From Candidatus Kapaibacterium sp. (GTDB lineage Bacteria > Bacteroidota > Ignavibacteria > Kapaibacteriales > UBA2268): a stretch of 35,234 bases of DNA. Positions 27,498-31,759 of this stretch are shown here, piece by piece; positions within the stretch are counted from its first letter, which is position 1; the number at the start of each line of letters is the position of its first letter. A program made the translations under genes and the position numbers. Where the stretch lies: contig CALKJQ010000136.1 of assembly GCA_937995785.1 (NCBI GenBank), positions 1 through 35,234 of the forward strand, read 5' to 3'. The notes under the pieces were generated by a model. That model was not told the DNA's origin. It saw only the letters and a program-made list of their open reading frames with translations, and searched no databases.

Positions 27498-28202
27498 ATG
27501 AGAAAATATTTTTTTGCAATTTGGATATTCTTTTTATCAATAAGCATATACGCACAACCTAAAATGGAAATAGTTGGAGGCGATACTTACGATTGGGGCA
27601 AATCCAAATCAACTCAAGGCAAATTACACACTGTTATCTCTATTAAAAATGTAGGTAATCAACCTTTAAAAATTTATAGTGTTAATGCAACTTGCGGGTG
27701 TACGACTGCACCAATTTCCAAAAATGAAATAAATCCTGGAGATACCGCCGGTATCGACGTTACATTAAATATTTCTACATATTCGGGTGATGTTAAAAAG
27801 AACATTGAAGTTAAAACTAACGACCCCGACCATCCAAATAAACTAATCTGGCTGAAAACCCACGTAATCAAGCCTGTTTCGCTTTTTCCTCAATATATGA
27901 ATTTTGCAAATATGATTATTGGCAAAGAAACAATTAGTAAAGTTGTAATTACCAATTCCACAGATGAACCTATTAAAATTAAAAGTGTTTCAACCTATCC
28001 CGATGGATTGTCTGTTAATATTAAAGAGGGAGACGAGATTGCTCCAAATTCGGATTTTGTGCTCGAAGCTCGTATAACTCCAAAAATTACGGGGCGTTTC
28101 CAAGCTAACTTAAAAATGGAGACCTCTCATCCCGATGTGCCAATACTATTGATTAACGGTATTGGTAGTGTTGTTGAACCTTTGGAAAATGAATCTCACT
28201 AA
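27498..28202 (+). CDS. DUF1573 domain protein, secreted
   Basis: A signal peptide (about 1-18, ending SIYAQ) is followed by two immunoglobulin-like beta-sandwich regions. The first carries the DUF1573 hallmark: TYDWGKSKSTQGKLHTVISIKNVGNQPLKI then ATCGCTTAPIS. Such proteins are common in Bacteroidota and resemble MSP/ASH domains; their function is unknown. The 11-residue upstream extension (ATG at 27465) would put charged residues before the signal peptide, so I use ATG 27498 (234 residues). The stop codon shares CTAA with the gmk stop on the other strand; the genes overlap by 4 bases. Confidence 0.87.
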   Translation: MRKYFFAIWIFFLSISIYAQPKMEIVGGDTYDWGKSKSTQGKLHTVISIKNVGNQPLKIYSVNATCGCTTAPISKNEINPGDTAGIDVTLNISTYSGDVKKNIEVKTNDPDHPNKLIWLKTHVIKPVSLFPQYMNFANMIIGKETISKVVITNSTDEPIKIKSVSTYPDGLSVNIKEGDEIAPNSDFVLEARITPKITGRFQANLKMETSHPDVPILLINGIGSVVEPLENESH

Positions 28203-28759
28203 AAGCAATTCGTATTGGCTTTCAATATTTTAATTACGTTTTGATATGCTATTTCCAAGTCATCGTTAATTACGATTTCATCGAATTGATTTTTAAAACT
28301 CAACTCAAATTCGGCTCGTTTTAATCTATAATTAATTTGTTGCTCCGAATCACTTGAACGATTTCTCAATCGTTGCTCCAATACTTGGAGCGATGGTGGA
28401 GCAATGAATATTAACAAAGAGTCATCAGGATAATTATTCTTCATCGACAAAGCTCCTTTAACATCAATATCAAAAATCAAGCACTTCTTACCATCAATTT
28501 TTGTTAATTCGCTTTTAGGAGTTCCATAGTAATTGCCAAAAATCTCTTCCCACTCAATTAATTGGTTCGTATCAATAAGTTGCTTGAAATCGGCAAATGT
28601 TTTAAAATAATAATGTAATCCATCAATCTCGCCAGTGCGGGGGGAACGAGTTGTTGCCGAGATTGATAAAACAAAGTTTGGGAAATCAGTCAGTATTCTT
28701 TTTACGATTGTTGACTTTCCTCCCCCACTGGGGGAGGAAAATGCTATTAGTTTTTTCAT
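28199..28759 (-). CDS. gmk: Guanylate kinase
   Basis: Converts GMP and ATP to GDP and ADP. The P-loop SSPSGGGKSTIVKR is at about 8-21. The GMP-binding motifs ATTRSPRTGEIDGLHYYF (about 35-52) and the Walker B-like CLIFDIDVKGALSMK, then the LID (RLRNRSSDSEQQINYRL), are all present. 186 residues is normal. It begins 14 bases after the M24 peptidase gene. Downstream of guaB in the same unit, it would make the later step of guanine nucleotide synthesis. Confidence 0.96.
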   Translation of the reverse strand: MKKLIAFSSPSGGGKSTIVKRILTDFPNFVLSISATTRSPRTGEIDGLHYYFKTFADFKQLIDTNQLIEWEEIFGNYYGTPKSELTKIDGKKCLIFDIDVKGALSMKNNYPDDSLLIFIAPPSLQVLEQRLRNRSSDSEQQINYRLKRAEFELSFKNQFDEIVINDDLEIAYQNVIKILKANTNCF

Positions 28760-28773
28760 TTATTGCTCAAATG

Positions 28774-30258
28774 TTAAATATAAATTAATTCGTCGGCTGC
28801 ATTAGTTAGCATAATCGGACCACTTTTTGTAAGGTGGACATTGTCTTCAACTCTCATACCAAACTTTTCGGGAATATAGATGCCAGGTTCAATAGCAACC
28901 ACAGCATCTTCGGGGACGTTTTGGTCGTCCATTCGGAATGTGATTGTTGGTTTTTCGTGGGGTACAATACCAATTCCATGACCTAGTGAATGCTTGAAAT
29001 AATCTCCATAGCCTGCTTCTTGAATTAATTTGCGAGCTGCACCATCAAGTATTTTACCATTGATACCTGGACGCATTGTTTCTATTGCTTTTTTCTGGGC
29101 AGTTCTCAGCAACGAATAGATACTTTTCTGCTCTTTTGTTGGTTTGGCTCCAACGCAAATTGTGCGGGTAATATCAGAGCAAAAACCATTAACTTTGCAA
29201 CCAAAATCGATGATTACAATATCGCCTTTGCGGATTTTCTTTTCGGATGGCTGTCCGTGAACTAATGCACCTCGTGAACCGCTGGTAACGATTATATCGA
29301 ATGCATCGCCCTCACTACCCATTTTGCGACTTTGATAAGCAATTTCGATCGCTATATCTTTTTCGCTCATTCCAGGTTTTATAAAATTCAAAAGAAAATT
29401 GAAAACTTTTTCGGAAATTGTGCAAGCTTGGCGTATGTTGTCCAATTCTTCGGGTGCTTTCGAACGTGTTGTGGGCTCTACTGCTTCGGGTATTGGCTTG
29501 AACTTAACGGGACGTATTCTATTCCTAAATTCGACTGCATCTTGATACGACAAAACATCGGATTCGAAACCTATTTCTTGATATGGTGTTAATAAATTTA
29601 AGTTTATTAATGTTCCCCAAACGTCTCGGGTTATTAGCGTTTGCAAATTTGGCAATGGATACAATTCGGTTTTGATTTGTTCCTCGTATCTATCATCAGT
29701 TACAAATAATATCTTATCTTTAAATATGAACAAATGTGCATCCGACCCCGAAAAGTTCGTCAAATAACGTATATTTGGCATATGTGAAACATATATTCCT
29801 TCTACTTTTTCGGAATTTAACTTGAAATAAATTTGTTCTAATCGATAATCAATTTTATCAGGATAACTCGATTTTCCTTTGCCTAACTTCTTATCGTTGC
29901 CATTAGTTTTTTCTGTTTTCTGTGTTACATCAATTTTATTTTCTACTGCATCTAATTCTAAAGCAGGAGCGGGAGTTTCTTCAACTTTGGCTACAGCTTT
30001 TTTCTTAGGTTCGGGCTTTGGAGTAGGAGCGGGAGTTTCTTCAACTTTGGCTACAGCTTTTTTCTTAGGTTCAGGTTTTGGAGCAGGTGCGGGAGTTTCT
30101 TCAACTTGGGCTACTGCTTTTTTCTTAGGTTCGGGCTTTGGTGTGGGTGCGGGAGTTTCTTCAACTTTGGCTACTGCTTTTTTCTTTGGTTCGGCTTTTG
30201 GAGCAGGAACTTTTGTATTTGAATCATCAGTTTGCAATTGAGTAGATTTTTTTGCCAT
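28774..30258 (-). CDS. M24 aminopeptidase P-like enzyme with Lys/Pro/Ala-rich repeat extension
   Basis: Xaa-Pro aminopeptidase family. The creatinase-like N domain begins near 133 (YRLEQIYFKLNSEKVEGIYVS), the pita-bread catalytic domain near 268. All five metal ligands are present: D351, D362, H427, E457 and E471, so it should be active with two metals. The unusual part is residues 1-132: after 20 residues come four copies of a 20-residue unit (PKKKAVAKVEETPAPTPKPE) and then a Lys-rich linker (KTNGNDKKLGKGK). There is no signal peptide. The repeats resemble those of histone-H1-like bacterial proteins and may bind nucleic acid or act as a flexible tether. It lies 34 bases after guaB. Confidence 0.9.
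   Translation of the reverse strand: MAKKSTQLQTDDSNTKVPAPKAEPKKKAVAKVEETPAPTPKPEPKKKAVAQVEETPAPAPKPEPKKKAVAKVEETPAPTPKPEPKKKAVAKVEETPAPALELDAVENKIDVTQKTEKTNGNDKKLGKGKSSYPDKIDYRLEQIYFKLNSEKVEGIYVSHMPNIRYLTNFSGSDAHLFIFKDKILFVTDDRYEEQIKTELYPLPNLQTLITRDVWGTLINLNLLTPYQEIGFESDVLSYQDAVEFRNRIRPVKFKPIPEAVEPTTRSKAPEELDNIRQACTISEKVFNFLLNFIKPGMSEKDIAIEIAYQSRKMGSEGDAFDIIVTSGSRGALVHGQPSEKKIRKGDIVIIDFGCKVNGFCSDITRTICVGAKPTKEQKSIYSLLRTAQKKAIETMRPGINGKILDGAARKLIQEAGYGDYFKHSLGHGIGIVPHEKPTITFRMDDQNVPEDAVVAIEPGIYIPEKFGMRVEDNVHLTKSGPIMLTNAADELIYI
29961..30210 (-). repeat. 60-bp in-frame tandem repeat (three full copies plus two partial)
   Basis: Period exactly 60 bases: full copies at 30001-30060, 30061-30120 and 30121-30180, with partial copies at 29961-30000 and 30181-30210. 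Copies differ at only a few bases, mostly silent or Ala/Val/Thr changes. The array encodes the 20-residue repeats of the M24 protein. Near-identity at DNA level suggests recent expansion and possible length variation between strains. Confidence 0.95.
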
Positions 30259-30292
30259 ATTTATACCTTAATTTATTTTCTGTTATATTCTT

Positions 30293-31759
30293 TTATACAA
30301 AATAGTTAGGTGATTCTTTAGTTATCGCTACATGGTGGGGATGCGATTCGATTAAACTGGAGTGTGAAATTTTTACGAATTTTGCATTAGTTTTAAATTC
30401 ATTAATATTACTACAACCAGTATAACCCATAGCAGCTTTCAAACCACCAGTAAGTTGATAAATTGTTTCACTAACATTTCCTTTAAAAGGAACGCGACCT
30501 TCGATACCTTCGGGAACAAATTTAGATATTTCGCTTTCTACATCCTGGAAATATCTATCGGCGCTTCCTTGTTTCATAGCTTCGACCGACCCCATACCTC
30601 TATATATTTTGTAAGCTCTTCTTTCGTAGATAATTTTGTCGCCAGGGCTTTCTTCGTGACCTGCCAGCAAATTGCCAATCATAACCGAATCCGCTCCTGC
30701 TGCAATAGCCTTAGAAATATCGCCCGTTTGCTTAATGCCACCATCGGCTATCACTGGAATGTTGTATTTCCTTGCAACGCTCACAACATTAAATATTGCA
30801 GTTAATTGAGGTACTCCTACACCGGCAACAATCCGTGTTGTGCAAATCGAACCAGGTCCGATGCCAACTTTTAAACCATCAGCACCGTTCTTGATTAACT
30901 CTTCGGCAGCTTCGGCAGTGCCAATGTTACCCGCTACAACCGACAAATCGGGATAATTTTGTTTAATTGTTCTCAATACATTTATAACCCCAGCCGAATG
31001 ACCATGGGCTGTGTCGATAAAAACAACATCAACCCCCGCCGCAACCAATGCGGATACTCTGTCCATCGTTGATGGGGCAACACCAACAGCCGCACCACAA
31101 AGCAGTCGCCCCGAACTATCCTTGGCTGAATTTGGGAATTGTTTTTTCTTTTGTATGTCTTTAACTGTGATAAGACCTTTTAAAATATAATTATCATCAA
31201 CAACGAGTAATTTTTCGATTCGATATTTTTGTAATATTTCTTCGGCATCGTCCAAAGTGGTACCTAATGGTGCAGTAACCAAATTGCCCTTAGTCATCAC
31301 ATTATACAGACTATCTTTGAAATCTGGATTGAATCTTAAATCGCGATTGGTAACTATTCCAATAAGTTTTCCATTATTTTCGACGATAGGAATACCCGAA
31401 ATTCTGAACTTGTTCATTATTTGCAGGGCATCGCCAACTGTTTTATCCGCCGTTAAAGTGATTGGCTTAGTAATCATACCACTTTCGGAACGTTTTACCA
31501 AATCGACTTGTTCTGATTGGCGTTCGATGGACATATTCTTGTGTATAACTCCCAATCCGCCTTCTCGGGCTATTGCACGAGCCATATTCGATTCGGTTAC
31601 GGTGTCCATTGCCGCCGACAAAATTGGAATATTAATGCGTATTTGACGAGTAAGTTGGGTTTGTATATTAACGTCTTTCGGAAGCACTTCGCTATAATTG
31701 GGGATGATTAAAACATCATCGTAAGTGAGTGCTTCACCTATAATTTTCTCTTCAAACAT
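30293..31759 (-). CDS. guaB: IMP dehydrogenase
   Basis: Oxidises IMP to XMP with NAD, the committed step of GMP synthesis. Residues 1-95 and 215-488 form the TIM barrel; 98-205 hold two CBS domains ([21 protein letters not shown]). The catalytic Cys is C306 in [13 protein letters not shown], and the finger loop RYFQDVESE and flap GRVPFKG are present. 488 residues is the normal length. It starts 8 bases after atpC, so it is cotranscribed with atpD-atpC. Confidence 0.97.

Follow-up and report, generated by a model that had tools for sequence, protein, structure and literature searches.

The locus and its peptidase

The window, i.e. the whole analysed stretch of 35,234 nucleotides from a Candidatus Kapaibacterium sp., encodes a peptidase of 494 amino acids on the minus strand (28774–30258), where all features below are located unless stated otherwise. 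The ATG start is preceded at a distance of 7 nt by AAGG (30266–30269), a possible ribosome-binding site. Pfam recognises a Creatinase_N domain at residues 139–261 (29476–29844; PF01321, 47.7 bits, cut-off 22) and a Peptidase_M24 catalytic domain at residues 274–478 (28825–29439; PF00557, 220.9 bits, cut-off 23), the latter also evident from the ligand columns of the alignment. Both are preceded by a lysine-rich tail (residues 1–130, 29869–30258), for which composition as well as AlphaFold2 confidence indicate disorder. The pLDDT is below 50 for 119 residues, and the low segments listed all lie within residues 1–129; the model of the tail is of low confidence throughout and shows no helix or other structured element. 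From residues 131–140 onward the block means reach at least 93, and the fold begins at residue 134. The fusion of an M24 enzyme to an added N-terminal tail, as proposed in the initial annotation, is real according to reading frame, Pfam and pLDDT. Judged from its sequence, the protein is a two-domain M24B enzyme (prolidase or X-Pro aminopeptidase) behind a 130-residue tail of predicted disorder.

The alignment further shows that all metal ligands (D351, D362, H427, E457 and E471) are present, in agreement with the initial annotation, and that H334, H423, H434 and R469, the histidines and arginine typical of M24B, are likewise intact. The role of each of these residues is presumably that of its counterpart in E. 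coli PepP. The earlier designation as aminopeptidase P holds at the level of an M24B peptidase, but the closest structures, by sequence as well as by predicted fold, are of the short prolidase or YpdF-like type, not of the classical PepP type of E. coli. The predicted fold matches 3q6d_A (TM by target 0.94) and 2zsg_A (0.87), with 35% identity in each case. Short M24B prolidases and X-Pro aminopeptidases from T. maritima (2zsg), B. anthracis (3q6d), P. horikoshii (1wy2) and E. coli (YpdF, 5cnx) share with the window peptidase a fold of ~355 residues (TM by target 0.86–0.94, 31–36% identity) together with the aligned metal ligands and catalytic histidines; their chains of 347–360 residues, however, lack such an N-terminal tail. 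None of the 17 NCBIfam matches to the peptidase attained its own cut-off.

Upstream of the gene lies guaB (IMP dehydrogenase, 30293–31759; TIGR01302 above cut-off) and downstream gmk (guanylate kinase, 28199–28759; TIGR03263 above cut-off), both supported by synteny. Besides the window, guaB directly precedes the peptidase in 20 of 21 family loci, the sequence of the 21st (G004) ending before it; one piece without a peptidase (L192) was left out of this count. The pairing also occurs in two of three further families of the order, G034 being the exception, and, beyond the order, in two members of a different class. Downstream of the peptidase, gmk is present in the window and in its four congeners. 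In the other stretches examined no gmk was seen there, but some of these are short after the match (378 bases in G060, 619 in G018, about 400 in G125 and G130). An order of guaB and then peptidase, i.e. of a purine synthesis gene beside an X-Pro peptidase, is thereby kept over much of the order. The neighbouring genes offer no clue to the tail.

Tandem repeat and translation of the tail

The tail contains a 60-bp tandem repeat of 4.1 copies (29962–30208) that encodes units of the pattern PAPxPKPEPKKKAVAxVEET and was detected by TRF with 89% matches and a score of 396. Self-match at period 60 amounts to 0.65 for the tail as a whole and 0.89 inside the array, against maxima of 0.48 and 0.46 in 2000 and 500 codon shuffles, respectively. 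The four 20-residue repeats built from a 60-bp DNA unit, as noted earlier, were confirmed on this basis and by comparison of the units: among the four full copies, variable columns fall on seven third and three first codon positions, and on no second position. We also considered that the tail had been copied from another gene of the same genome, which found no support. Across the entire 2.25-Mb assembly (94% complete), the back-translated KKKAVA pattern was found at four places, each in this peptidase gene, and a search of residues 1–99 against the own genome returned only the tail itself and one alignment at E = 0.109 that overlaps the same place.

Within the first 159 codons, in-frame ATG, GTG or TTG codons are limited to an ATG at codon 1 and a TTG at codon 8; the following one is ATG 160. 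Since no ordinary start lies between codons 8 and 160 and the fold extends from residue 134, the enzyme cannot be made without its tail from an ordinary start. This supports the use of the ATG at 30258 and excludes, for ordinary starts, an internal start or an untranslated tail (codons 9–159 are free of ATG, GTG and TTG). Barring non-standard starts, the reading frame thus obliges the tail to be translated together with the enzyme. On the plus strand, an antisense reading frame of 120 amino acids covers the tail (29879–30241). It is probably a by-product of the 60-bp repeat, which holds the opposite strand open, and not evidence of a gene.

Distribution of tailed orthologues

Orthologues at E 1e-60 or better were found in 52 of 54 genomes of the Kapabacteria family, the exceptions being G005 and G045. 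The check on homologues suggested earlier, for tail presence and repeat number, showed lysine-rich N-terminal tails of 31–560 residues in 14 of these 52, with clear repeats in three of the 14. Tails were present in all five available species of the own genus, in all four of g37 and in both of g15 (39 residues), as well as in the single carriers G009 (236 residues), G013 (560) and G065 (31); eleven tails comprise at least 45 residues. The remaining 38 orthologues are tail-less, the tail thus being dispensable for the core job of the enzyme, and 33 of them have a stub of 10–19 residues before the junction. These stubs often begin with MAKK or MSKK and are followed by a conserved YP...RLxQ segment that heads the fold (P133 in 50, R139 and Q142 in all 52 orthologues). 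The tail thus seems to have grown between a start and a junction that are both older than itself.

On a tree of the catalytic part, the state of the tail (long or short) changed at least five times, with 13 of 54 inner branches open and gain and loss not distinguishable by count. For this purpose loci were dropped when their first 200 catalytic residues equalled those of another. G040, G055 and G043 were scored as short: their first ATG would give 32–38 residues, their second opens the usual stub, and the part in between resembles, by eye, the end of guaB in another frame. In G048 the orthologue occurs at two places (L109 on C75 and L142 on C3), one of which ends at the contig end. The partial copy on C3 represents this genome in the tree and in the ligand table, the fuller one on C75 having been dropped as a duplicate. 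With an assembly of 83% completeness and 6% contamination, the double locus is perhaps due to contamination or a mixture of strains.

A match is present in 112 of the order's 123 genomes, those of the family among them, and in 90 of 198 in the phylum sample. Beyond the family, none of the open frames above 411 codons (seven in the order, plus one of 402, and two in the phylum sample beyond the order) showed a lysine-rich tail, their length stemming from out-of-frame sequence upstream of a start without such a tail; none was seen in the shorter frames inspected either. Among the relatives inspected, the tail architecture is restricted to the family. M24 paralogues in these genomes have open frames of 259–507 codons.

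Composition and evolution of the tails

Lysine accounts for 21–31% of residues in twelve of the 14 tails and for 13% and 19% in the remaining two, both from g15. Aromatic residues, Cys and Met together do not exceed 4% in twelve tails, and Asp plus Glu range from 3 to 24%. Proline is nearly absent from the four g37 tails (0–3%) and from that of G009 (1%). Thirteen of the 14 tails have a positive net charge, and the values span −2 to +62: the tail of this species carries +8 (128 residues), those of G001 and G002 +2 (72 residues) and −2 (91 residues), and the most basic ones +39 (G004) and +62 (G013).

Clear repeats are confined to this species (60 bp), G004 (42 bp) and G013 (72 bp), where none of 500 codon shuffles reached the observed self-match; the three units are unlike each other in sequence. 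For the other eleven tails, 12–347 of 500 shuffles did so, the g37 member G059 being next best with 12 and the rest not differing from shuffled codons. The notion that most tails are built from repeats is thus wrong. No motif common to all 14 was seen.

All comparisons involve one genome per species, and between species the tail changes fast in length: the four g37 tails measure 51, 63, 64 and 72 residues at 94–97% identity of the catalytic domain. Within the own genus, aligned parts of the tails are 36–62% identical (four pairs). The tails evolve under constraint, with pN/pS of 0.09–0.58 relative to 0.04–0.26 for the catalytic part; the tail value is the higher one in ten of ten pairs, and the tail values are rough owing to gap placement. 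Simulated neutral change at 0.2 per site and an assumed GC content of 34% lowered lysine from 22–31% to 13–19%, i.e. to ~60% of its value, in the eleven tails tried, and added on average 1.9–16.5 stop codons per tail in each of them; the real tails have none. Lysine is retained, and tail composition appears to be better kept than tail sequence.

The g15 tails (L102, L103) and that of G004 (L106), which sit on neighbouring branches, share a basic motif of the form K(P/T)KR(P/K)Y(H/N)(R/K)(H/K), present as KxKRPYHRH in the former and KPKRKYNKK in the latter. We take it to bear a weak likeness to an AT-hook, and it could be an AT-hook-like or an RNA-binding element.

Rarity of comparable stretches

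The abundance of comparable stretches was assessed in 832 mechanically chosen reading frames (1.05 Mb) from eight genomes of the family, in stretches picked to include the peptidase. The criterion was a stretch of 45 residues in which lysine makes up 20% or more and FWYCMLIH 13% or less, and the peptidases of G003 and G004 were identified by coordinates. Seventeen frames qualified, six of which are this peptidase, one for each of the six tailed genomes sampled; the peptidases of the two tail-less genomes contain no such stretch. With 11 of 826 other frames remaining, a genome-wide fashion for lysine-rich tails is excluded for the frames sampled. An earlier version with a 50-residue window had given eight matches in 522 frames of five genomes, four of them this peptidase. 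Ten of the eleven other frames were scanned with Pfam (one from G012 was left out). Four resemble RNA or ribosome proteins, namely a pseudouridine synthase with S4, L17, an S1-domain protein and a TP_methylase (probably RsmI), and the other six are PPDK, a SPOR protein, two PpiC/SurA-type proteins, a TPR protein and a Bro-N protein. This link, the sole pointer to RNA in our data, is a hint from a small, post hoc sample.

Possible function of the tail

We tentatively propose, with a probability of about 0.43, that the short stub of an M24B Xaa-Pro peptidase has expanded into a disordered, lysine-rich and aromatic-poor tail that acts as a fuzzy electrostatic tether to a polyanion, RNA or the ribosome being favoured. 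Expansion would have taken place in the own genus and, seemingly as separate events, in further lineages of the Kapabacteria. It would have proceeded by in-frame tandem duplication in this species, G004 and G013; in the other tails the repeats would have decayed, or these tails might be of other origin. The tail would concentrate the enzyme on its polyanionic partner, as the poly-charged tails of MetAP2 and Ebp1 do (see below). In its favour we count the obligatory translation of the tail, its recurrence on the tree, the retained lysine, the constraint, the rarity of such stretches elsewhere, the small set of RNA or ribosome proteins among the other frames, and the MetAP2 and Ebp1 precedent. 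Against a tether stand the many tail-less orthologues, the lack of a common motif, the confinement of clear repeats to three tails, the smallness of the RNA-protein sample, the higher pN/pS of the tail, the open branches of the tree, and the net charge near zero in the closest relatives, G001 and G002. This last point argues against a purely basic DNA glue and keeps alive the reading of the tail as a passive bristle. We regard it as a real, though somewhat less likely, possibility that growth was near-neutral: an exposed stub tolerates in-frame expansion and yields a passive entropic bristle or a solubility tag under a loose constraint against hydrophobic residues. Such an origin is consistent with the wide range of lengths at little sequence conservation, the faster evolution of the tail in every pair, and the 38 orthologues that do without one. 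It accounts less readily for lysine contents that are still 21–26% in tails without detectable repeats (G001, G002, G003 and G009), for the loss of lysine and the gain of stops in the simulation, and for the rarity of such stretches in other sampled frames of these genomes.

The initial annotation likened the tail to histone H1-like or TolA-like segments. The composition of this tail, with its Lys/Pro/Ala-rich tandem repeats, is indeed H1-like in the manner of AlgP; the likeness to TolA did not hold, as the single NCBIfam match to a TonB family scored 18.7 bits at a cut-off of 315 and the tail model lacks a helix. An H1-like tail might bind DNA or polyphosphate, as for AlgP, PhaF and Hc2, and localise the peptidase to the nucleoid or to polyP granules. 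We consider this unlikely, even though the Lys/Ala/Pro or Lys/Val/Pro repeats of this species, G004 and G013 and the KKA-rich g37 tails resemble the KPAA domain of AlgP and the tails of G004 and G013 are strongly basic. In the tails of G001 and G002 acidic residues balance the basic ones, proline and alanine are not kept across tails, and neither of the adjacent genes, guaB and gmk, is DNA-related. The case for a purely DNA-wrapping role is weak, because the net charge is just slightly positive here and close to zero in the two nearest species. According to the available excerpts of PMC9239181, the repeat number of the KPAA domain is altered in clinical isolates, its peptides bind DNA, and the authors speculate that AlgP tethers polyP granules. 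AlgP (as excerpted there), PhaF and chlamydial Hc2 share lysine-rich repeats with this tail, of variable copy number in AlgP and Hc2; theirs are part of DNA- or granule-associated proteins, whereas the Kapabacteria tails sit on a peptidase and contain 3–24% Asp plus Glu.

Self-regulation, with the tail as substrate or lid of its own enzyme through X-Pro bonds, appears highly improbable. Many such bonds occur in this one tail, and MetAP2 sheds its tail by autoproteolysis (PMC10808355, as excerpted). The importance that the initial annotation attached to them is nevertheless contradicted by the scarcity of proline in the g37 and G009 tails. Enzymes of this M24 type work on N-termini, and the N-terminus here reads MAKK; nor does the low-confidence tail model offer a structured element.

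The closest parallels to the proposed tether are found within the M24 fold, in eukaryotic proteins, a human relative among them. In the excerpts available, MetAP2 is described with a charged N-terminal extension of variable length and sequence that engages the rRNA segment ES27L (PMC10808355), and the catalytically inactive Ebp1 as inserting a lysine cluster into ES27L (PMC7005732). Both combine the pita-bread fold with a flexible poly-charged extension beside the core, variable in length in MetAP2 (PMC10808355, PMC7005732, same excerpts), and the window peptidase family likewise carries a poly-charged, variable extension of predicted disorder on an M24 core. In contrast, the window peptidase falls outside the MetAP2 sequence family (TIGR00501, 32.5 bits, cut-off 222.65), with prolidases and X-Pro aminopeptidases as best structures, and the lysine cluster of Ebp1 is C-terminal rather than N-terminal. 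ES27L is a eukaryotic rRNA expansion segment. To our knowledge it is absent from bacteria, and the putative partner must therefore differ from that of MetAP2 and Ebp1.

The open-access literature yielded no account of an aminopeptidase P with a lysine-rich N-terminal extension, of Xaa-Pro peptidases from Kapabacteria, or of bacterial lysine-rich disordered repeat tails tied to the nucleoid, and only unrelated matches for N-terminal extensions of prolidases; for MetAP2 and polylysine it offered a paper on Nosema. The tail architecture is real and has recurred on an ordinary enzyme; the literature reached does not describe it. It provides a natural series from a 10-residue stub to a 560-residue tail on one enzyme in one family, which lets one ask how disordered charged tails affect enzymes and how they originate. 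Should the tail bind ribosomes, these bacteria could carry out X-Pro processing during translation, and ribosome factors with an M24 fold and a tail would have arisen more than once.

Altered active sites in tail-less relatives

Active-site residues are changed in nine of the 52 family members, all of them tail-less, on two branches only and hence with no statistical association with tail state. G007 and G046 (L024 and L144) carry D351E, D362T, H423T, H434N and E471K. The other altered orthologues are those of G017, G021, G050, G051, G061, G062 and G063 (L023, L025, L140, L141, L138, L143 and L139); in the g14/g18/g38 clade, H334N is combined with H434V or H434I, plus D362A in g18 and E471D in g38. 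These proteins are possibly pseudo-peptidases that retain the fold, a hint that, besides catalysis, a non-catalytic role may preserve it. A broader reading, which we hold to be quite unlikely, would make the enzyme a bacterial counterpart of MetAP2 and Ebp1: an M24B peptidase held at the ribosome by a poly-charged tail that evolved convergently and more than once, in which the scaffold or ribosome role would be conserved and catalysis optional. In all 14 tailed orthologues, the active-site residues are intact.
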